Assembly (NCBI GenBank): GCA_015493225.1
Contig: WGDO01000043.1
Coordinates: forward strand, 1-48,720
DNA length: 48,720 nucleotides
Origin: Patescibacteria group bacterium
GTDB lineage: Bacteria > Patescibacteriota > Minisyncoccia > Moranbacterales > DUUL01
Direction: 5' to 3'
The translations under genes and the position numbers were made by a program. This document shows, one piece after another, positions 1,651 to 46,539 of this stretch (its first letter is position 1; every line of letters starts with the position of its first letter). Under the pieces are notes generated by a model, which had not been told where the DNA came from, made no database searches, and saw only the letters and a program-made list of their open reading frames with translations.

Positions 1651-2865
1651 ATGGAACAGCAATTTTCTGAAGCCATCACAGAAAACTCGCCTAAATATAT
1701 TACGGAGTATTCTCCTGAATATGTGGCTGAAGTAAAAAGCCATCGCACTAAAAATAGTATGTCGTTTGGAGAAAATGAGTTAGCTCATTTAGATTACGAT
1801 TTGAAAGAGAAGGATAGAGATAAAATATATCGAGAGAACAATAAATTATCTGGAAAAGAAAAACATACAATTTTGAACACAGGAGAAGTTGATAATCCTA
1901 TGTATAGATTAAAATATTATATTGCACAAAAAATTAAGAATCTTTCTGAGTACGACCGTGTTAAAAGCGATGACTACGGTAAAATAGGAGAATTTTTAAG
2001 ATACGCTTTAGAATCGCATGATATTAGATGGGCGGTTGCAGTAATGTTAAATAGAATTCGTAAAGATAAAAGTTTAGAACCGCTAGACGAACAAAAAATT
2101 ACTATTCATGATTTAGCTGATTTATTTATTGATATAGACTTAATTCCGAATGGATTTATTAAAAAAATGGCAGAAGTGCATAAAAACAAGTTTGATAAAA
2201 AGGCAGAGATTATGGAGGTAAAATTTTTAGAAATAAAAAATGACTTTAAAATACAAGCTTTTAGGATGATTGATGAGGGAAAACTCCCAATGTCAAAAAG
2301 TCTAGTAGAGAAACGAATCAACGAATACAATGTTATTGTGCATGATCCAATTAACAAAGATTCTTTTGGGGTAGGTGATGCGTTATCAAAAACTATTAGT
2401 GTTAGAATTGATTTGACGGATGACGAACTTAGACACACATTGTTTCATGAATATGTTCATGCTATCGCTGGGCTGACAATTGTTCGTAAAGTCAAGAAAA
2501 GTATTTCATTTATAGAATATGAAAGGGAGGGATTATCAACAGCTGGTTTTTTGGAATATGAAGGTAAAGTGACTGACTTTAAAAGAAGAAAGTATTTATG
2601 GCTGACTGAAGCTGTTACTGAGATTATCACTCTTGAATTATTACGGGAAGATGATGGGAACCATTATATGTTTGAAAGAGCGGAGGTGTTAATATTAATA
2701 AATGCAGGTGTTCCTAAAAAAATGTTTATAGATGCTTATTTTGAAAACTATAGTCTTAAAAATGGTACACCAAAATTTGATGCACTTTTTGCTAAAATTA
2801 AAGAAGTTATGGGGGAAGAATTTATTGAAAAAAAAGGACAGGGAATATTCTTAATGGTCATTTAA
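1651..2865 (+). CDS. Putative zincin-type metallopeptidase (HEYVH ... WLTEAVTEII)
   Basis: HExxH motif (LFHEYVHAIAG) with a downstream Glu-rich helix WLTEAVTEIITLELL. No family recognised. Confidence 0.45.
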   Translation: MEQQFSEAITENSPKYITEYSPEYVAEVKSHRTKNSMSFGENELAHLDYDLKEKDRDKIYRENNKLSGKEKHTILNTGEVDNPMYRLKYYIAQKIKNLSEYDRVKSDDYGKIGEFLRYALESHDIRWAVAVMLNRIRKDKSLEPLDEQKITIHDLADLFIDIDLIPNGFIKKMAEVHKNKFDKKAEIMEVKFLEIKNDFKIQAFRMIDEGKLPMSKSLVEKRINEYNVIVHDPINKDSFGVGDALSKTISVRIDLTDDELRHTLFHEYVHAIAGLTIVRKVKKSISFIEYEREGLSTAGFLEYEGKVTDFKRRKYLWLTEAVTEIITLELLREDDGNHYMFERAEVLILINAGVPKKMFIDAYFENYSLKNGTPKFDALFAKIKEVMGEEFIEKKGQGIFLMVI

Positions 2866-2896
2866 AAATATTAGAATAAATTAATAATAAATAACA

Positions 2897-3487
2897 GTGA
2901 GAAAAATAATATACATTATTCCTGGGTTTCATGGTTCAACTGATTTGGTGAGATATCAAAGAATCATTAAAGTTTTCCGAAAAAGAGGATTTGTCGTTAA
3001 GCCCATTGTAATTTCTTGGAATTATAAGGTTATGACAGATTATGTAGATCAATTTTTGGGGCAATTGATGCATAAAGAAAATGATGAAGTTTACGTGTTT
3101 GGATTTTCTTTTGGGGCGATGATTGTTTTTATTTCTGCTAAAGATATAAAACCAAAAAAGATAATTTTAGCTTCTTTGTCTCCATTTTTCAAAGAAGACT
3201 TGCCGTATCTAAAGAAGTCTTGGCGAAAATATGTTGGTAAGAAAAGACTTATAGATTTTAAAAATTTTTCGTTTGATAAAATAGCTCAAAATATTAAGTG
3301 TAATGTGCAGTTGCTTGTTGGGCAGAGAGAGGATAGTCTATTACATCGAAGAGCGAAGTTAGCATTAGAAAAAATACCAAAAAGTAATTTGTGTATGGTA
3401 AATGGAGCGAGACATAATATAGAACAACAGGAGTATTTTAAAGCAATAACAAAGGTTGATTTTTTTGATGATTATGGTAGGATGTAG
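2897..3487 (+). CDS. Alpha/beta-hydrolase-like protein, GTG start
   Basis: YIIPGFHGSTD, VFGFSFGAMIVFISA (GxSxG-like nucleophile elbow), C-terminal GARHNIEQ. Confidence 0.55.
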   Translation: MRKIIYIIPGFHGSTDLVRYQRIIKVFRKRGFVVKPIVISWNYKVMTDYVDQFLGQLMHKENDEVYVFGFSFGAMIVFISAKDIKPKKIILASLSPFFKEDLPYLKKSWRKYVGKKRLIDFKNFSFDKIAQNIKCNVQLLVGQREDSLLHRRAKLALEKIPKSNLCMVNGARHNIEQQEYFKAITKVDFFDDYGRM

Positions 3488-3526
3488 GCAGGGAAATTAT
3501 TGGCTTAAGGTTTGAATAGCAAACAT

Positions 3527-3597
3527 TCGAAGATCGTCTAACGGTAGGACAACTGGTTCTGGTCCAGTCAATTGGGGTTCGAGTCCCTATCTTCGAA
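3527..3597 (+). tRNA. tRNA-Gln (anticodon CTG), no encoded CCA
   Basis: Cloverleaf by eye: acceptor TCGAAGA/TCTTCGA, D-arm GTCT..GGAC, anticodon arm CTGG-TTCTGGT-CCAG, TPsiC loop GGTTCGAGTCC. Confidence 0.9.
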
Positions 3598-3675
3598 CAA
3601 GGCTGAAAATGTGATAATATAAGAATTACAGATGATGTTATATAACGGAGAGAGAAAGCCAACTGCTTGGCTTTC

Positions 3676-3750
3676 GGATTGAGGGACTCGAAGGAAATTT
3701 TTTTGCTAAAAAATTTCCAGGCCCGAAGGGGAGTCCCTATCTCCGAACAT
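3676..3750. repeat. Hairpin plus duplicated tRNA-Gln 3' end (GAGTCCCTATCTCCGAACA)
   Basis: 18/19 match to the tRNA 3' region (GAGTCCCTATCTTCGAACA). Flanked by the inverted repeats GGGACTC/GAGTCCC and GGAAATTTTTT/AAAAAATTTCC. Confidence 0.6.
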
Positions 3751-3804
3751 AATAATTAATAATTAATAATTAATAATTAATAAATAATAATTAAACAAAA
3801 AACT

Positions 3805-10057: not shown

Positions 10058-10315
10058 ATGGCATCAAATACATTTCATGTTTCAATTCCTAGTTATATGC
10101 AACCGTTTGTTGAGGAAAGAATTAAAGAGCGATTTCATAAATCACCGGGAGCTTACGTGCAGGAATTAATTAGACAAGATCAACTTCGAGCCGAAAAAAT
10201 AAAATTAACAAATATGTTGTTGGTTGGTTTGGCGTCTAAAAAAGTAAAAATGACAAAGCAACGATGGGAAAAGTTAAAGAAAAAAACCATACAAGAAATT
10301 AAGGAGGGCAAATAA
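10058..10315 (+). CDS. ParD-like type II antitoxin
   Basis: HVSIPSYMQPFVEERIKERFHKSPGAYVQELIRQDQ (RHH antitoxin pattern). Stop is adjacent to the toxin start. Confidence 0.8.
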   Translation: MASNTFHVSIPSYMQPFVEERIKERFHKSPGAYVQELIRQDQLRAEKIKLTNMLLVGLASKKVKMTKQRWEKLKKKTIQEIKEGK

Positions 10316-10316
10316 T

Positions 10317-10682
10317 ATGAAAATAGTTTTTTTAAGTGAGGCGGAAACAGACGTTGCTAACACAATAAAATATTTCGTGAAGCAAGATGTTGATCTTGCC
10401 GATGTAATCTTTGATAAGATTTGGTATACCTGTGAGTTATTAGCTGGTATGCCGAGAATGGGCACTTCTGTGAATAATTTTATTGACAATGGTTATTTAA
10501 AGGAGTGCGAGTTAGGGAATGGGTTAACGGGAGAAGATTTTTTTGAGGATGTACGAAAATTTCCAGTAGTGGATTTTAAAAAGTTTCTTATTTTCTATAA
10601 GGTAGTCGATGACAATCTAGAAATCATCAGAATAATACACAGCAGTCGCGACATCCCAACAATTTTCGCAGAGGGAGAATAG
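10317..10682 (+). CDS. ParE/RelE-like toxin
   Basis: EAETDVANTIKYFVKQD ... RKFPVVDFKKFLIFYKVVDDNLEIIRIIHSSRDIPTIF is the ParE C-terminal pattern. Confidence 0.85.
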   Translation: MKIVFLSEAETDVANTIKYFVKQDVDLADVIFDKIWYTCELLAGMPRMGTSVNNFIDNGYLKECELGNGLTGEDFFEDVRKFPVVDFKKFLIFYKVVDDNLEIIRIIHSSRDIPTIFAEGE

Positions 10683-10712
10683 TGGTATTTTTATTTTTTA
10701 AAAAAATAAAAA

Positions 10713-10748
10713 AGGTCGCATACCAGTTAAGGTGAGCGACCTGTTGTT
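10713..10748. terminator. Bidirectional terminator-like hairpin between the TA pair and the DnaB-like gene
   Basis: AGGTCGC / GCGACCT stem, A-tract 5' and T-rich 3'. Confidence 0.55.
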
Positions 10749-10789: not shown

Positions 10790-12118
10790 TTATTCTTTAT
10801 CCCTCCAGGTAAAAGTGGAGGGGTTAAATTTCAAATTAAGAGTGGTAGGAGGACCATACTTGAATATTCTGATTTCAGCATCTTCCCATTCTCCTTCTGA
10901 AGTATTATTGGCATAGTATTCCTCTCTATACAAGCATAGAATTAACCGTGCTAAGTTCTCTCCTTCACTGGTGCCAGATAGATCAGAGGGTAGAGGGCGT
11001 TTGTTTTCTCGTTTATTTACATCCTTGTTTACTTGGGACGAAATAACAATAGGGATACCTAAGTCATTGCCAAGAGCTTTGAAATATCCAGAGATAGCTT
11101 CCAGTTCTTCATTGCGTTTAGCAATTTTTTCTGGCCAGACTAGTTGCTGGAGATTCTCAATTACAACAAGATCTAAACCACTTTTCTTGTGTAATTTTCT
11201 GACTTTCTCCCCAATCTCCATGCTGCACATTCTCTTATCTTCCATGCAGAAAATGTTTAGTAGAGATTTCTTTTCTTTGACTTCAAAAAGGACTTTATCC
11301 AACAGAGAGAGTTCTTTTTTTGTTAGAGGGTTTTTCATATCTCCGCCTCTTTTTACTCTTTTCTCGTGAATCTGACTGCGGGAGACAAATAGTCGAAAGA
11401 AGATTTCCTTCGGTTTTATTTGGGGTCCGAAATAGGCCACGGGCAAATTATTCTCAAAGAATAATTTCTGCAAAAACCCTAAAGCCAGCGACGTTTTCCC
11501 CATACTGGTTTGACCCAGTATGATTGTCACATCATTAGGCAATCCTCCAATGGCATTATTTAAGGAGTGGATGTGAGTTTCGGCAACTGAAAAACTATCC
11601 AGCAGGCTATCCAAGTCAGCTGGTAAAGTTGTAGCAGTCAAGGAAGTTAAATTCATTGAAATAGCATCAAGACTCCTCCGCCATTTGGTCAAGAGTTCCT
11701 CAATAGAAATTGTTGTATCATATCCCTGGGAAGTCATATTAGATGACGAAGAGATTATTTGTCTTCTAATAGACTTCTCTTTAATTTTTTTAGCATAAGA
11801 AATTAAAGTCGAAGGCATAGGGATGACATCTGTTAGATTAGCCAAGTAGGCTGGCCCACCAATTTCCTCGAGTTCGTTACATTCCAGAATATAACTGGAT
11901 ACCAAAGTTAAGTTAAATATTTCATTTCTTTGACGTAACTTAATCATGGCTGAGAAAATTATTTTATGGGCATCTCGGTAGAAATCTTTTGCAGAAATGA
12001 TCTCCAAGATGTCTTCAAATAATTCCAAGACATCCTCCGCCAATATCAATAGCATACCCAAAAGGGCAATTTCTGCCTCCACATCAGATGGAGGAATCAT
12101 CTCTTGTAATTCTTTCAC
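10790..12118 (-). CDS. DnaB-like helicase/ATPase with substituted catalytic residues; likely GTG start at 12118 (ORF track start 12175)
   Basis: N-terminal MIPPSDVEAEIALLGMLL; Walker A GQTSMGKTSLA; Walker B position LVVIENLQQL; SSQVNKDVNKRENKRPLPSDL; LYREEYY. AGAGGTGAT SD lies before the GTG. Confidence 0.88.
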   Translation of the reverse strand: MKELQEMIPPSDVEAEIALLGMLLILAEDVLELFEDILEIISAKDFYRDAHKIIFSAMIKLRQRNEIFNLTLVSSYILECNELEEIGGPAYLANLTDVIPMPSTLISYAKKIKEKSIRRQIISSSSNMTSQGYDTTISIEELLTKWRRSLDAISMNLTSLTATTLPADLDSLLDSFSVAETHIHSLNNAIGGLPNDVTIILGQTSMGKTSLALGFLQKLFFENNLPVAYFGPQIKPKEIFFRLFVSRSQIHEKRVKRGGDMKNPLTKKELSLLDKVLFEVKEKKSLLNIFCMEDKRMCSMEIGEKVRKLHKKSGLDLVVIENLQQLVWPEKIAKRNEELEAISGYFKALGNDLGIPIVISSQVNKDVNKRENKRPLPSDLSGTSEGENLARLILCLYREEYYANNTSEGEWEDAEIRIFKYGPPTTLNLKFNPSTFTWRDKE

Positions 12119-12122
12119 AATA

Positions 12123-13121
12123 TCACCTCTTATATAAACTGACCCAGCCGGGCCAATTTTTTTTATCTTCACCATAAATATGTTTGAGATATCCTTCTAA
12201 ACCTAAGGCGGTTTCCGGAGAATATGCCCCAAATTTTTCTATGGCATATAAAATCTGACGAATTTTTTTCTTTTTTCGTCGGCTAATATGGATCCGACGA
12301 TCAACCACGGTTAGACCCAACATATGAGGAATTGTCTTTCCAAGATTGTCCTTGGTTTTTTTTGGTTTAATTCTAAAGCCGAACTTAGCTGGCACCGCTG
12401 ATAATTCTTGCTCAGTCTCTTCGGAAATTAAATTTGCAGAAACAAAGTTAATATCATCAACATAAATCGACCAAAAAATTTTTTCCCGAATGCAGATTTT
12501 TTCAAACGCATCACACATCGGTTGGTAAACTAAATTCAAGAGGGGCGGACTAGACGAAGCTCCTTGGGGTAAACGACGTTTGCCGTCATATTGATAAGTT
12601 GCTAGCCAGGAAATAATTTCCGCCAGATAACTTTCAATCCCCAACTTTTTAAGAGCTTCAAAAACCATTTTGTCATCAATACCTGGAAAAGCATCAGCGA
12701 TGTCTATTCCAAAGTGATGAGGATTTTTAGATTCTAGTAGTGGCTTTAATTCTTCAGCAGCCATTTTACTATTTCGTCCCAGAATAAATCCGAATGTCCG
12801 GGAATGAGCTGGTGACAAAGAAACAACCCATTGTCCCAGTGGTCTGAGAACTTTTTGTAGATTGGGATGTGGTTCTAGAATTTTCCTGTCTTTATGAGGT
12901 TCTTTGATGACGTAGGAACAAAAACCATATCGAAAAATTTGTTTTTTAGTTCGGCCATCTTTTTTAGTTTCCATTACAACTTTTGGTGTTTCGGCGACGA
13001 CAATAGCTTTTCGCCAGTGCTTTTTAGGAATGCCGGTTAATGCTGACAATCCACCCAATAACCAACGACGTCTCAATTTATTGGAGACGTCAACAACATT
13101 TACTCTAGAGAGTTGTTTCAT
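12123..13121 (-). CDS. Retron-type reverse transcriptase
   Basis: Motif A FGIDIADAFPGID, motif B LPQGASSSPPLLNLV, motif C YVDDINFV, motif D GFRIKPKKTK, C-terminal HMLGLTVVDRRIHISRRKKKKIRQIL. Stop is 4 nt before the DnaB-like GTG start. Confidence 0.9.
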   Translation of the reverse strand: MKQLSRVNVVDVSNKLRRRWLLGGLSALTGIPKKHWRKAIVVAETPKVVMETKKDGRTKKQIFRYGFCSYVIKEPHKDRKILEPHPNLQKVLRPLGQWVVSLSPAHSRTFGFILGRNSKMAAEELKPLLESKNPHHFGIDIADAFPGIDDKMVFEALKKLGIESYLAEIISWLATYQYDGKRRLPQGASSSPPLLNLVYQPMCDAFEKICIREKIFWSIYVDDINFVSANLISEETEQELSAVPAKFGFRIKPKKTKDNLGKTIPHMLGLTVVDRRIHISRRKKKKIRQILYAIEKFGAYSPETALGLEGYLKHIYGEDKKNWPGWVSLYKR

Positions 13122-13166
13122 TGTCTTTCGTCCCCGTTTAAATTTTTAATTATCAACGAACAAAAA

Positions 13167-13491
13167 GTGAGTGAGTACTTTGACCAGTGATCGAAAATGA
13201 AGGCTCCTGAGAGGGTTTCCCTCACTTCCGAGAAATCTGAAATTGCACCACGAAGAAAAAGTGGGATTTCATCCCACATTCCCCCCACGCAAAAATCCTG
13301 CGCAGCAGGCGAGTGAAGCCCACGCTCACAATCTCAGGGGTCCAGGGGTGTCCCCTGGGTTATTCCCGTTTATATTTCCTCCGCCGTCCGATTCAGAAAG
13401 CGGCCTTAAGACGCCTCGTAAATACATTGAGGGACACTCCAGACGAGAAGAAGTGTCTTAGTCTTTTCTTTTTAACGTCATTTCCTCACTC
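13167..13491 (-). ncRNA. Candidate retron ncRNA (msr-msd) upstream of the RT
   Basis: GAGTGAG (13491-13485, minus) pairs with CTCACTC (13175-13169, minus). Between them are perfect hairpins CCAGGGG-TGT-CCCCTGG (13342-13358), GTGGGAT-TTC-ATCCCAC (13261-13277), CCTGC-GCA-GCAGG (13297-13309), GACACT/AGTGTC (13433-13457) and GAGGG-TTT-CCCTC (13211-13223). GC-richer than its surroundings. Confidence 0.65.
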
Positions 13492-13497
13492 GATTTA

Positions 13498-13526
13498 TTT
13501 GTAGCACAAGAGAAAAATATTGTCAA
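13498..13526 (-). promoter_or_regulatory. Sigma70-type promoter for the retron operon
   Basis: Minus strand TTGACA - 17 nt - TACAAA. Predicted start at about 13491 coincides with the first base of the a1-like repeat. Confidence 0.7.
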
Positions 13527-17250: not shown

Positions 17251-19050
17251 ATGAACGAAGTAGAACAAATTAAAGACCGATTAAGTGTGGCAGAAATTGT
17301 CGGCGAGTATATTAAGCTGGAAAAATCTGGTGTAAATTACAAAGCCCTCTGCCCATTTCACAACGAGAAAACTCCGTCGTTTACCGTAAACACAGAGCAA
17401 AATTTTTGGTATTGTTTTGGATGTCAGGAGGGAGGGGATATTTTTACTTTTGTTCAAAAAATGGAAGGACTAGATTTTAGAGAATCATTGGAAAAACTAG
17501 CCGAACGAGCTAATGTGGAATTACCAAGATATACTCCTCGAAACAAAGAAGAAAAAAACAAAAAACAAACAGCTTTAGATATTCTTCAATTGACTACTAA
17601 AATTTATCAACAGCAACTAATTAAAAATAAGAAATCGCCGGAAATTTTAAAATATTTAAAAAAACGCGGTTTCACCAAGGCGGTTATTCGTGATTTTAAA
17701 ATTGGCTATGCTCCCGATAGTTGGCGAGCCATCACGGACTATCTAGCCACTAAGAAAAAATTTATTCCGGCAGACATTGTCCAGGCTGGATTGGCAATTC
17801 ATAAAGACAATACCAATCAACAAGATATCCAAAATTACTACGACCGTTTTCGAGACCGAATTATGTTTCCCATCATCGATATCAATGGAAAAACAATTGG
17901 TTATTCGGCGAGGATAGCTCCCGGCGGAGATGAAAAAAATGCTAAATATATTAATAGCCCTCAATCCATAGTTTATGACAAGAGTAAAGTTCTTTATGGT
18001 CTTTATCAAGCTAGACAATCCATTCGTCAAAGGGGGTACGCCATCATTGTTGAAGGAAATGCTGATGTAGTTTTATCCCACAGTATTAATGTTAAAAATG
18101 TGGTGGCCGTATCCGGAACGGCTCTAACCAATGAGCAAATTAAAATTCTCAAACGATATACTAATAAAGTTATGCTTAATTTTGATATGGATGGCGCCGG
18201 ACAAAAAGCAACCAGAAAAAGTATTCAAATTTGTTTACAAAACGATTTACAGGTAAAAATAATTTTACTGGATGAAAAGTATAAAGATGTTGGAGACATT
18301 GTAGCTGAGCAGCCAGATGATTGGAAAAAATTTATTCAAAAAGCTATTCCTATAATGGAATATTATTTTAAAACTTTTTTCGCAGAATATAATGTGGAAG
18401 ATATTCAAGATAGAAAAATAATTATCAGGGAGTTGTTAAAAGTCATTAAAGATATTGCTGATCCCATTGAGCAATCCTATTGGCTTAAAAAATTATCTCT
18501 TCGAACTCAAACCGATGAAGACTTATTGACAAATGAGCTAGAAAAGGTTAAATTAAATAGTAGAGAAACATCTTTGCCGGTACGAAGTTCTGAAAATAAA
18601 AATACAGTCACGGAAAATAATAAGCAAAAGGAAGAGAAAAAAGTTTCTCGCAGTGTTGTTTTGCAACGACGCTTGCTTGGTTTACTGGCTAAATTTCCCA
18701 GAGAACTGAAAAATATTATCGATAGTTTTTCACCAGAAACTTTTTTTGATAAAGATAAAAAAGATATCTTTCAAAAATTAAAAAACAAAGAAGATTTAGG
18801 AAAAATCAAAGATAAAGTTAATAACTACATTGTACAAATTAGTTATCAATATAAAGAAGGTGATGGAATTACTGAGGTTGAAATTGATCCGGTTAAAGAA
18901 TGGAAGTTAAATCTACAAGAATTGACCAAGCTAAAACAACGAGAAAAATTGAAGCAAATAGAATTGGACTTAAAACAGGCCGAGGAAAGTGGCGATGAAA
19001 GGGAAATTGAGAGATTGATGATGGAGTTACAGAAATTACTGAATGGTTGA
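17251..19050 (+). CDS. dnaG: DNA primase
   Basis: CPFHNEKTPSFTVNTEQNFWYCFGCQEGGDIFTF zinc finger. TOPRIM VEGNADVVL ... NFDMDGAGQKA. Confidence 0.97.
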   Translation: MNEVEQIKDRLSVAEIVGEYIKLEKSGVNYKALCPFHNEKTPSFTVNTEQNFWYCFGCQEGGDIFTFVQKMEGLDFRESLEKLAERANVELPRYTPRNKEEKNKKQTALDILQLTTKIYQQQLIKNKKSPEILKYLKKRGFTKAVIRDFKIGYAPDSWRAITDYLATKKKFIPADIVQAGLAIHKDNTNQQDIQNYYDRFRDRIMFPIIDINGKTIGYSARIAPGGDEKNAKYINSPQSIVYDKSKVLYGLYQARQSIRQRGYAIIVEGNADVVLSHSINVKNVVAVSGTALTNEQIKILKRYTNKVMLNFDMDGAGQKATRKSIQICLQNDLQVKIILLDEKYKDVGDIVAEQPDDWKKFIQKAIPIMEYYFKTFFAEYNVEDIQDRKIIIRELLKVIKDIADPIEQSYWLKKLSLRTQTDEDLLTNELEKVKLNSRETSLPVRSSENKNTVTENNKQKEEKKVSRSVVLQRRLLGLLAKFPRELKNIIDSFSPETFFDKDKKDIFQKLKNKEDLGKIKDKVNNYIVQISYQYKEGDGITEVEIDPVKEWKLNLQELTKLKQREKLKQIELDLKQAEESGDEREIERLMMELQKLLNG

Positions 19051-19102
19051 TAATTAGTTCCACAAGAGTTCCACAAACAAGTCTTGTGAGGAAGCGATTA
19101 TT

Positions 19103-19121
19103 CCACAAGCCTTGCTTGTGG
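19103..19121. repeat. Perfect hairpin in the dnaG-rpoD spacer
   Basis: CCACAAGC-CTT-GCTTGTGG. Related CCACAA/TTGTG words just upstream. Confidence 0.5.
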
Positions 19122-19159
19122 AGAAAAATAAACAACATAATACATTTTAATATATTTTT

Positions 19160-20605
19160 ATGGCAAGCAGAAAAAAAACAACCAAAAGAAAACCAAGAGC
19201 AAAAACCACTGTTAAGAAAAAAACTAATACCCCAAAGAGAAAAGTAAAGACAAGGACTAAGGTTGTTGCCAGAAAAAAAACCGTTCGAAAAACAACTACT
19301 CGTCGTCTGGGACGTCCTAAGGCTACTAGAAAAAAAGGGACAACTAAACAAACACGTCGAGTAACGCCCAAGAAAAAACGGATTACCCAAAAAAGAAAAA
19401 CAGTAGTCAAAAAAATAACTCCTAAGAAAAATACTAGACCTAAAACCAAAACAACTGTCAAAAAAATAGTTTCCAAAAATACCACCGGTGGCAAAGTCAA
19501 TGAAAAAGAGGATGTAAATAGTAAGATGACTAAATTTATTGAACAAGGTCGTCAGCGAGGATTTGTAACCGAAGATGAAATAGTGCATTCTTTTGGTACC
19601 ATCGAAGAAAATATTGAAGATGTTGAAAAATTGTATGATTTACTTGAGGAGGGGGGTATTAAAATTTTAACTTCCGATGAAGTTATTAAAGAAGAAGTGG
19701 AAAGAGAAGCTACTGAAAAACCAGAAATTCAAAAAAGGAGATTTGATGAACAATTAAAAGCAGAAAACAGCAATTTATCAGATTCAGTTCAGATGTATTT
19801 ATGGGAAATTGGAAAGACTCCTTTAATAAAAGCAGAAAGAGAGGTCGCTTTGGCAAAAAGAATAGAAAAGGGGGATGAATTAGCCCGAAAGGAATTAACC
19901 GAAGCAAATTTAAGATTGGTTGTTTCCATCGCTAAAAAATATGTGGGGCGAAGTCATAGCTTGTCTTTTCTTGATTTAATTCAAGAAGGAAATATCGGTT
20001 TATTTAGAGCAGTGGAAAAATTTGATTATCGGCGAGGATATAAATTTTCCACTTATGCTACCTGGTGGATTAGACAATCCATTACCAGGGCCATTGCTGA
20101 CCAGTCACGAACCATTAGAATTCCAGTTCATATGGTAGAAACTATCAATAAATATATTCAGACTACCAGAAGACTAGTACAAGAATTAGGACGAGAACCA
20201 TTACCAGAAGAGGTTGCTTCAGAGATGGACTTGGAAGTTGACAAGGTTCGTCATATTATGAAAATTTCCCAAGAAACAGTTTCCCTGGAAACATCTGTTG
20301 GAAGTAGTGATAATAATGAAAGTACTTTAGTTGATTTTATTAAGGATAATAAGATGGTAATGCCAAATAAACAGGCCGCTAGGACACTCCTTAAGAAACA
20401 TATTAAAGAGGCCCTGGAAGGTTTAACCCCCCGGGAGCAAAAGATTTTGAAAATTCGTTTTGGGCTGGACGATGGAGTTACTCATACCTTGGAAGAGGTA
20501 GGGCGTGAATTTGGTGTTACCAGGGAAAGAATTAGACAAATTGAGGCAAAAGCATTGGAGAAAATTAGAAAGCAGGAAGCTAGTGATAAGTTGAAACACT
20601 ATTAA
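19160..20605 (+). CDS. rpoD: RNA polymerase sigma-70 factor with Lys/Arg/Thr-rich N-terminal extension
   Basis: [81 protein letters not shown]. Confidence 0.95.
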
Positions 20606-45210: not shown

Positions 45211-46539
45211 GTGAAAAATGTGCCAAAGAAAACAAGTGAGGTTGTTAACAGCGGTAAAACAAAAAAAATACTTGGTGTTAAGGGGCGGCCTGATTTGGTA
45301 ATTGTTGAAAGTAACAATAAAATTACCAAGAATGATGACCCTTCTCAAACAGAAAAAATGAAGGGGAAGGGGCAATGTGCGACAGCAACCACCAGTGCAG
45401 TTTTTGAGATTCTCAAAAGAGCTGGGATACCTGTTGCTTACAAACAACGACTTTCCAAAACAAAATTTTTGGCTGAGCGCTGTAAAATGATACATCTGGA
45501 AGTCGTCGGTCGGCGGTATGCAGTTGGCAGTTTTCTTAAGAGATTTCCAAATCTTGGAGTTTCTGACGGTCAACCACCGCACAGATTTCATGGCTGGAAG
45601 TTTGAGCTCTTTCTTAAAACCACAGGTCTTAAGATAAGAGACAAAAATGGTAAATTACTTGGTGAAATTCCAGTTGATGATCCATTTATTTCTAATCCCT
45701 ATGATAAAAAATGGGAACTTCGTTACCCAAAAATTCCTTTGTGGGATAAAAAATCTTCCCTAGGGACAAGGGTTAAGTCTTCGGCTATTCTTCCTAAGGG
45801 AGTTAATGTGGAGCAGATTGAAGAAATACTCAAGCAAGTTGCTCTTGTCTTGGAAGGGGCATTTGCTCAGATGGGCATCCGCTTCATTGACTTCAAGATT
45901 GAGTTTGGTATTACCACCAAAGGGGATCTCGTTGTTGCTGACGTGATTGATAATGATAGCTGGAGAGCACGTGATAGTAACTGGGAGGAATTAAGCAAAC
46001 AGTTATTTCGTGATAATGCTGCCAGAAAACTCATCAAAGACAAATACACGCTGATGGCCGAGCTTGTGCAAGGTTTTAGGATTCCTAAACAAGTTTTGGT
46101 TTTGTGGAGAGGTTCTCCGTCAGATAACTTTCCTGAAGTGCCTGTTATTGCTGGAGTAAAAGTTGTCAAGATAACACTCTCTGGGCACAAGTCTCCTAAA
46201 AAGTGTTTGGCAAAACTGGAACAGCTTTTAGCTGAATATCCTGAGGGAGGTGTAGTATTATCGATTGTTGGCATGAGCAATGGACTTGGGCCTACGCTTG
46301 CAGCTCGTACTTCTTGGCCTGTGATTGCCATTCCTGTTACAGCCAAAAACCGTCCGCATGATGTCTGGAGCAGTTTGGAGTCACCCAGCGGAGTTCCTTT
46401 GCTGACAGTACTGTCGCCAAACAATGCAGTTCTTGCGGCAGTTAACGTTCTGGCTCAAAAAAATCCAGTTGCCTACATGACAAGACAGTTAGCAATTGAA
46501 AAATTGGATGGACAATTATTTCATTGTGCATTAAAATAA
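45211..46539 (+). CDS. Bifunctional SAICAR synthetase / AIR carboxylase (PurC-PurE fusion, PAICS-like), GTG start
   Basis: PurC: RRYAVGSFLKRFPNLG, DFKIEFGITTKGDLVVADVIDNDSWR. PurE: MSNGLGPTLAARTSWPVIAIP...DVWSSLESPSGVPLLTVLSPNNAVLAAVNVLA. SD GGAGGAAGTAAG. Confidence 0.9.
   Translation: MKNVPKKTSEVVNSGKTKKILGVKGRPDLVIVESNNKITKNDDPSQTEKMKGKGQCATATTSAVFEILKRAGIPVAYKQRLSKTKFLAERCKMIHLEVVGRRYAVGSFLKRFPNLGVSDGQPPHRFHGWKFELFLKTTGLKIRDKNGKLLGEIPVDDPFISNPYDKKWELRYPKIPLWDKKSSLGTRVKSSAILPKGVNVEQIEEILKQVALVLEGAFAQMGIRFIDFKIEFGITTKGDLVVADVIDNDSWRARDSNWEELSKQLFRDNAARKLIKDKYTLMAELVQGFRIPKQVLVLWRGSPSDNFPEVPVIAGVKVVKITLSGHKSPKKCLAKLEQLLAEYPEGGVVLSIVGMSNGLGPTLAARTSWPVIAIPVTAKNRPHDVWSSLESPSGVPLLTVLSPNNAVLAAVNVLAQKNPVAYMTRQLAIEKLDGQLFHCALK

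Follow-up and report, generated by a model that had tools for sequence, protein, structure and literature searches.

By their reverse transcriptases (RTs), the closest described relatives of the locus reported here are the retrons of types III-A, VI and II-A (PADLOC models RT_III-A, RT_VI and RT_II-A; Ec86 by both sequence and fold), whose partner genes encode a PRTase with a winged helix (III-A), an NDT (II-A) or an HTH protein (VI). The ATPase retrons (type I-A Ec78/Eco7 PtuAB, Ec83 and Eco8) combine an RT-RNA system with an ATPase-domain partner, and their partners are annotated as other types of ATPase joined to a nuclease. Retrons are complexes of RT, RNA and DNA that restrain a toxic partner until phage infection triggers its release (PMC12548924, PMC13405049), and the effectors described include ATPases with nucleases, cold-shock proteins, HEPN RNases, membrane proteins and the like (PMC13405049). 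Here, we report a cassette from Patescibacteria that shares with retrons a promoter, an RNA with self-complementary ends, an RT and a partner gene, as well as RT profile, tree position and fold. It differs from types III-A, VI and II-A in having a partner of the DnaB family, in the absence of the RT motifs NAxxH and VTG and in fitting no PADLOC type, and from the ATPase retrons in that its ATPase is of the RecA/DnaB type, without a nuclease and without hydrolysis residues. On balance we favour, with moderate confidence, the reading of a retron-like operon with a disarmed DnaB partner, a putative replication poison that would be released on phage infection.

The window, meaning the whole stretch of 48,720 nucleotides analysed, is contig C43 of a genome of 1.3 Mb in 87 contigs (G000), which together with its relatives we take to belong to the class Paceibacteria (Patescibacteria). 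A single cassette on the minus strand, from position 13526 to about 10700, consists of a promoter, a structured RNA of ~340 nt, the RT gene, the DnaB-like gene and a terminator (Table 1). It holds two protein genes only, and a nuclease, an NADase and a membrane effector are all absent by Pfam and direct reading. The GTG of the DnaB-like gene lies 4 nt beyond the TGA of the RT and is preceded by AAGAGGTGAT, in agreement with the initial annotation, which had placed a Shine-Dalgarno sequence inside the RT end; the ATG further upstream likewise opens the frame, and the starts of the homologues favour GTG.

Table 1. Positions of the cassette features within the window, in the order of transcription.
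Feature	Position	Strand	Basis and remarks
Promoter	13498..13526	-	TTGACA 13526-13521, 17 nt, TACAAA 13503-13498, extended -10 TG; direct reading
Structured non-coding RNA, msr/msd-like	13159..13500	-	Fold z, three-locus consensus structure, unique in genome
a1-like 5' arm GAGTGAG, pairs with a2	13485..13491	-	Separate folds, three-locus alignment
TGACG just inside a1, candidate branch/priming guanosine 13479	13476..13480	-	Putative role, after the retron anatomy of PMC6868368
Conserved hairpin GCCGC-TTTCTGAATCGGAC-GGCGG	13381..13405	-	Helix 6, 100% paired, 2 pairs compensated
Invariant block CCAGGGGACACCCCTGGACCCCT, 23 nt, 7-bp hairpin with ACA loop	13336..13358	-	Identical in three loci
Long imperfect hairpins, probable reverse-transcribed (msd) part	13185..13335	-	Helices 9-11; putative assignment
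a2-like 3' arm CTCACTC	13169..13175	-	Separate folds, three-locus alignment
Retron-type RT, 332 aa, YVDD	12123..13121	-	Pfam RVT_1, PADLOC, NCBIfam, tree, fold
DnaB-like protein, full DnaB fold	10790..12118	-	GTG start 12118; alternative ATG 12175; catalytic Glu and Arg finger lost
Intrinsic terminator AGGTCGC...GCGACCTTTTTT	10700..10742	-	3' of the DnaB-like gene; direct reading

The flanks of the cassette are made up of housekeeping genes, namely those for pyruvate kinase, DnaG (dnaG), an rpoD-type sigma factor, ftsA, ftsZ and elongation factors, and DNA polymerase III alpha and polymerase I are also encoded nearby. The dnaG and rpoD genes (17251-20605) were considered as parts of the system and rejected as housekeeping genes that do not recur at the other loci. 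A gene for a ParE-type toxin, preceded by a small gene that is probably its antitoxin, is located at 10058-10682 (plus strand), convergent with the DnaB-like gene and using the same intergenic terminator hairpin; this pair is absent from the other loci. Elsewhere in the window, SAICAR synthetase and AIR carboxylase domains are found in one frame (45211-46539, plus strand), an unusual fusion or arrangement in the purine pathway.

The association of the two protein genes is recurrent. Among 384 genomes of the class, the nearest relative of the RT was found in a Candidatus Giovannonibacteria MAG (G505, contig JAUYMO010000036.1), with 55% identity over the last 99 residues of an RT that is interrupted by the contig end, and the gene that follows encodes a DnaB-like protein of 436 aa with an 8-nt overlap. 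A search of 131 genomes of the window's order with the RT gave 413 bits in G820 and 379 bits in G824, the next best score being 35.5 bits; in both genomes the DnaB-like gene overlaps the RT gene, in G824 as ATGA provided that translation begins at the internal ATG. Conservation of the DnaB neighbour was a check set beforehand, and an overlapping or abutting DnaB-like gene accompanies every RT of the clade, four of four (window, G820, G824 and G505). Beside the other, more distant retron-like RTs retrieved from the phylum and from viral contigs the DnaB-like profile found no partner, with the single exception of L214, which is treated below. A terminator is located 3' of the DnaB-like gene in all four loci, the flanking genes are dissimilar across them, and no third gene recurs beside them.

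The distribution of the two genes is also shared. The profile of the DnaB-like family gave 700-723 bits in G000, G820 and G824 only, while ordinary DnaB, found nearly everywhere in the 131 genomes, reached at most 276 bits with it, and the RT of the cassette scored 379-758 bits against at most 36 for other RTs of the order. Both genes occur together in 3 of the 131 genomes and both are missing from the remaining 128; within the order the DnaB-like gene is never found without the RT. All four carriers keep an ordinary DnaB elsewhere in the genome. The trees of RT and DnaB agree in the order (window,(G820,G824)), to which G505 is external in the DnaB tree, as is expected of a module inherited together. 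That RT, RNA and DnaB-like protein make up one coupled system is, in our judgement, highly probable. Wider searches gave little else: genome contigs scanned with the RT alone gave no match, and with the pair alignment the G505 contig only; in viral contigs, the RT family alignments found one distant RT in one search and none in another, and the DnaB-like search found ordinary phage DnaBs only. Distant and diverse retron-like RTs (L006-L072) are present in roughly 4-5% of the sampled genomes of the phylum and class. The G505 genome harbours, besides its ordinary DnaB and its DnaB-like copy, a partial third DnaB-related frame (G505:C30:36-443, L261; 72 bits).

A promoter of the form TTGACA-17-TACAAA had been claimed upstream of the RNA, and it is read there directly. 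A consensus scan of the window found 8 sites against 7.2 expected, and it does not list this promoter because it requires the -10 element to end in T. Alone, the promoter in the window does not exceed chance; what gives it weight is the comparison of three loci, since TTGACA with a spacer of 17-18 nt is found directly 5' of the RNA arm in all three comparable loci (window, G820 and G824), followed in the homologues by the -10 elements TATAAA (G820) and TAATAA (G824).

The RNA itself, previously described as a multi-hairpin non-coding region, is strongly supported as a structured element. Folded separately, the RNA region adopts similar structures in the three loci, with z-scores of -3.4 to -3.9 in the window and of -6.4 and -4.0 in the two homologous loci. 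In the consensus structure of the three loci 86.7% of cells are paired, against 40-52% when the partners are slid by 1-3 columns, a control that favours the structure because the structure was derived from these same three sequences, the only loci with readable RNA. Two-sided compensation was observed in 34 of 96 pairs, where shuffles gave 15.4 and the slid controls 5-8, and such two-sided changes are stronger evidence for RNA structure than the pairing percentage.

The arms of the closing stem are unlike between the loci but complementary within each: GAGTGAG/CTCACTC in the window, CAGCGAGTGACT/AGTCACTCGCTG in G820 and GAGCGGGTAA/TTACCCGCTC in G824. Complementary RNA ends (a1/a2), a feature of retrons, are present in all three, and the 7-bp core of the window is shorter than the ~8-30 bases of a1/a2 in retrons (PMC6868368). 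The 5' arm is followed by GAC in 3 of 3 loci (alignment columns 23-25), within TGACG in the window and TAGAC in G820 and G824, and the candidate priming context is TAGA or ATGA as against the usual TAGC of retrons. The 20-nt core of the invariant block has one occurrence in the whole genome even with up to 2 mismatches allowed, and, one chance match of 24 nt aside, the RNA as a whole matches nothing else there. Strict and permissive Rfam searches gave no credible match for the RNA and no intron match, an exact search of viral contigs for the 23-nt block had no hit, and a covariance model of two conserved hairpins, run on 64 sources that were mostly retron-RT loci, recovered the three known loci only.

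The RT, noted at the outset for its LPQGASSSPP and YVDD motifs, is a complete protein with the Pfam RVT_1 domain. Retron RTs make up all of the best 25 PADLOC models listed for each of the RTs of full length (window, G820 and G824), with top scores of 112.6 bits for the window (RT_III-A), 119 for G820 (RT_VI) and 115 for G824 (RT_VI), while a DGR RT used as control was assigned to DRT/UG and general RT models. NCBIfam gave the RT 94 bits with retron_St85, 35 with group II and 12 with Drt2. A maximum-likelihood tree groups these RTs with those of retrons and divides both from the group II and DGR RTs at a support of 100/98 (93/96 for that division in a larger tree); the clade is set apart on a long separate branch with a stem of 1.56-1.83. 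The predicted structure (pLDDT 86, pTM 0.84) has retron RTs at PDB fold ranks 1-16 (Ec86, Eco7, Ec78, Eco2, Ec83 and Eco8), a result that may be favoured by the alignment of retron-like viral RTs on which the model was built. The phylogenetic placement, another check set beforehand, is by PADLOC, tree and fold with the retron RTs.

Other classes of RT were considered and rejected. A diversity-generating retroelement (DGR) is not indicated, as there is no repeat pair nearby, the RNA region has no second copy in the genome and the RT has a retron profile. The group II intron model scored 35 bits against a cut-off of 300, Rfam had no intron match and the tree separates the RT from those of group II introns. 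For none of the full-length RTs (window, G820 and G824) does PADLOC list a DRT/UG model among the best 25. The genome has one more RT fragment, itself interrupted (G000:C21, L001, 1291-1800, minus strand; YADDF, FLGY), which adjoins a tyrosine recombinase and by eye is group II/DGR-like rather than retron-like.

Both signature motifs of retron RTs are missing. Region X, where NAxxH is expected, reads AAEEL in the window, ATEIL in G820 and ATETL in G824, and region Y has MLG or LLG in place of VTG in all four RTs. Of 16 validated retron RTs, 14 have NAxxH and 14 have VTG (PMC6868368), and NAxxH is present in 63 of 80 viral retron-like RTs. The initial annotation had taken the C-terminal region to be VTG-like and to fit retron RTs; this did not hold, the motif being xLGLT. 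The RT belongs to the retron lineage by profiles, tree and fold, yet lacks both signature motifs, and because of this 'retron-like' is a safer term than 'retron'. The proposal of a new retron-type system is upheld in so far as the RT clusters with retrons and has a conserved DnaB neighbour, and weakened as a plain claim to a retron. The missing motifs weaken the statement that the locus is a retron and leave untouched the statement that it works like one.

The partner is of full length with both DnaB domains in one protein (Pfam), as had been annotated, although 'homolog' understates what is a catalytically altered paralogue. The four DnaB-like proteins form one clade (100/100) outside the host and viral DnaBs and are a monophyletic offshoot of the replicative helicase. 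With replicative DnaB they share the N-terminal domain, the linker helix, the RecA-like domain, the Walker A GKT with its P-loop lysine, kept in all four, and a complete predicted fold (pLDDT 87) whose best Foldseek matches are the DnaBs of V. cholerae and E. coli. They differ from it in the residues of catalysis, which in DnaB include a catalytic Glu and Lys and Arg fingers (PMC8421360), and in being a second copy beside an ordinary DnaB. The catalytic Glu of SLEM is replaced by Q, G, G and Q in the four proteins, the Walker B DYLQL reads ENLQQL (Asp to Glu), KHRNGP has become K--xGxP with the Lys finger kept and the Arg finger deleted, and DLRESG has become D[LVI]xG. The 18 ordinary DnaBs taken for comparison retain the Glu, the Walker B Asp and both fingers without exception, whereas Glu, Asp and Arg are lost in 4 of 4 DnaB-like proteins, and the NCBIfam DnaB model gives 227 against a cut-off of 385. 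That all four have lost catalytic residues yet kept Walker A and the fold suggests proteins that bind nucleotide but do not hydrolyse it normally. Judged by their sequences, these proteins are probably hydrolysis-dead, and probably able to bind nucleotide and assemble but not to turn over.

The exception noted above is L214 (IMG/VR 3300005144_000001, 1814-3801), where a retron-type RT with both NAxxH and VTG is preceded by a 284-aa protein with a DnaB_C domain. Its ATPase has a degenerate Walker A (GRT), lacks the N-terminal domain of DnaB and stands nearest to ordinary DnaB. Unlike in the clade of the window, the RT lies elsewhere in the tree and the ATPase stands ahead of it. If this single case is real, a degenerate DnaB domain may have been recruited by retron-type RTs twice.

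The arrangement of the cassette suggests how it may operate. One promoter would give rise to a transcript with the folded RNA followed by the translationally coupled genes of the RT and the DnaB-like protein. The RT would bind the RNA and copy part of it into single-stranded DNA, primed, to judge by the anatomy, from the guanosine adjoining the a1/a2 stem; it is likely that retron-like DNA is made. Since the RT is without NAxxH and VTG, which are presumed necessary in retrons for priming and for recognition of the RNA, a modified priming scheme is possible. Restraint is proposed because described retrons work in this way: the complex of RT, RNA and DNA would keep the DnaB-like protein inactive until phage infection disturbed it and freed DnaB-like subunits. 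These could then poison replication by mixing into DnaB rings or by capturing primase, loader or single-stranded DNA, and the resulting halt of replication would constitute abortive infection. Poisoning of the helicase, argued from analogy, is a tentative element of this scheme, to which we give somewhat less than an even chance. Likewise tentative, and rather doubtful when taken as a whole, is the full proposal of a new retron-like type in which a hydrolysis-dead helicase copy is restrained by the complex and freed to jam the forks of phage and host.

The chief rival leaves the cassette intact and changes the role of the partner: the DnaB-like ring would be a static, non-toxic scaffold or sensor encircling or protecting the reverse-transcribed single strand and reporting damage or phage single-strand-binding protein, with the harm done by another host factor. 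Single-stranded DNA is bound by DnaB rings, a loss of hydrolysis suits a static clamp, and a cassette of two genes without nuclease, NADase or membrane effector also speaks for such a role. The second gene of described retrons is, however, usually a toxic effector (PMC12548924, PMC13405049), and the surroundings of the four loci share no further gene; this rival appears rather unlikely. A smaller probability attaches to an RT-RNA lineage outside the retrons, with its own priming and product and paired with a DnaB-like protein, whose likeness to retrons would be convergent or ancestral. The absence of both motifs and the long separate branch of the RT agree with this, but it has to account for PADLOC models that are all retron RTs among the best 25 listed while the DGR control goes to DRT/UG, for retrons as the best PDB folds, and for an RNA with self-complementary closing ends and a conserved GAC alongside.

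DnaB genes are frequent in phages and plasmids, and the helicase could in principle be of phage or plasmid type, serve the replication of a mobile element and stand beside an RT by happenstance. However, the catalytic residues are lost in 4 of 4 copies, integrase, capsid and replication genes are absent beside the loci, and the nearest viral DnaBs are ordinary and fall outside the DnaB-like clade; a phage replication module was rejected on the catalytic loss and the tree, and the broader idea is very improbable. Chance adjacency, in which a retron RT would lie beside a housekeeping helicase gene unrelated to it, is refuted by recurrence and has practically no probability left: the pair is found in four genomes with a common distribution, common terminators and overlapping or abutting genes, and the ordinary DnaB is located elsewhere in each of them.

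The suggestion that DnaB is not a standard retron effector class agrees with the databases and literature searched. The sole PADLOC match of the DnaB-like protein is mad8, at 20 bits, and no model fits the pair. Among the papers searched, none joined retrons with DnaB or a replicative helicase as a system, and none had a description of retrons of such a kind in Patescibacteria. The cassette offers a test of whether NAxxH and VTG are truly essential for retron-type priming. If our favoured reading of a retron-like operon with a disarmed DnaB partner is true, retron-like systems would extend to the ultra-small Patescibacteria, where both the RT clade and the RNA are distinct, and a disarmed replicative helicase would represent a new way of stopping infection, in which the replication machine is sabotaged with a dead part.
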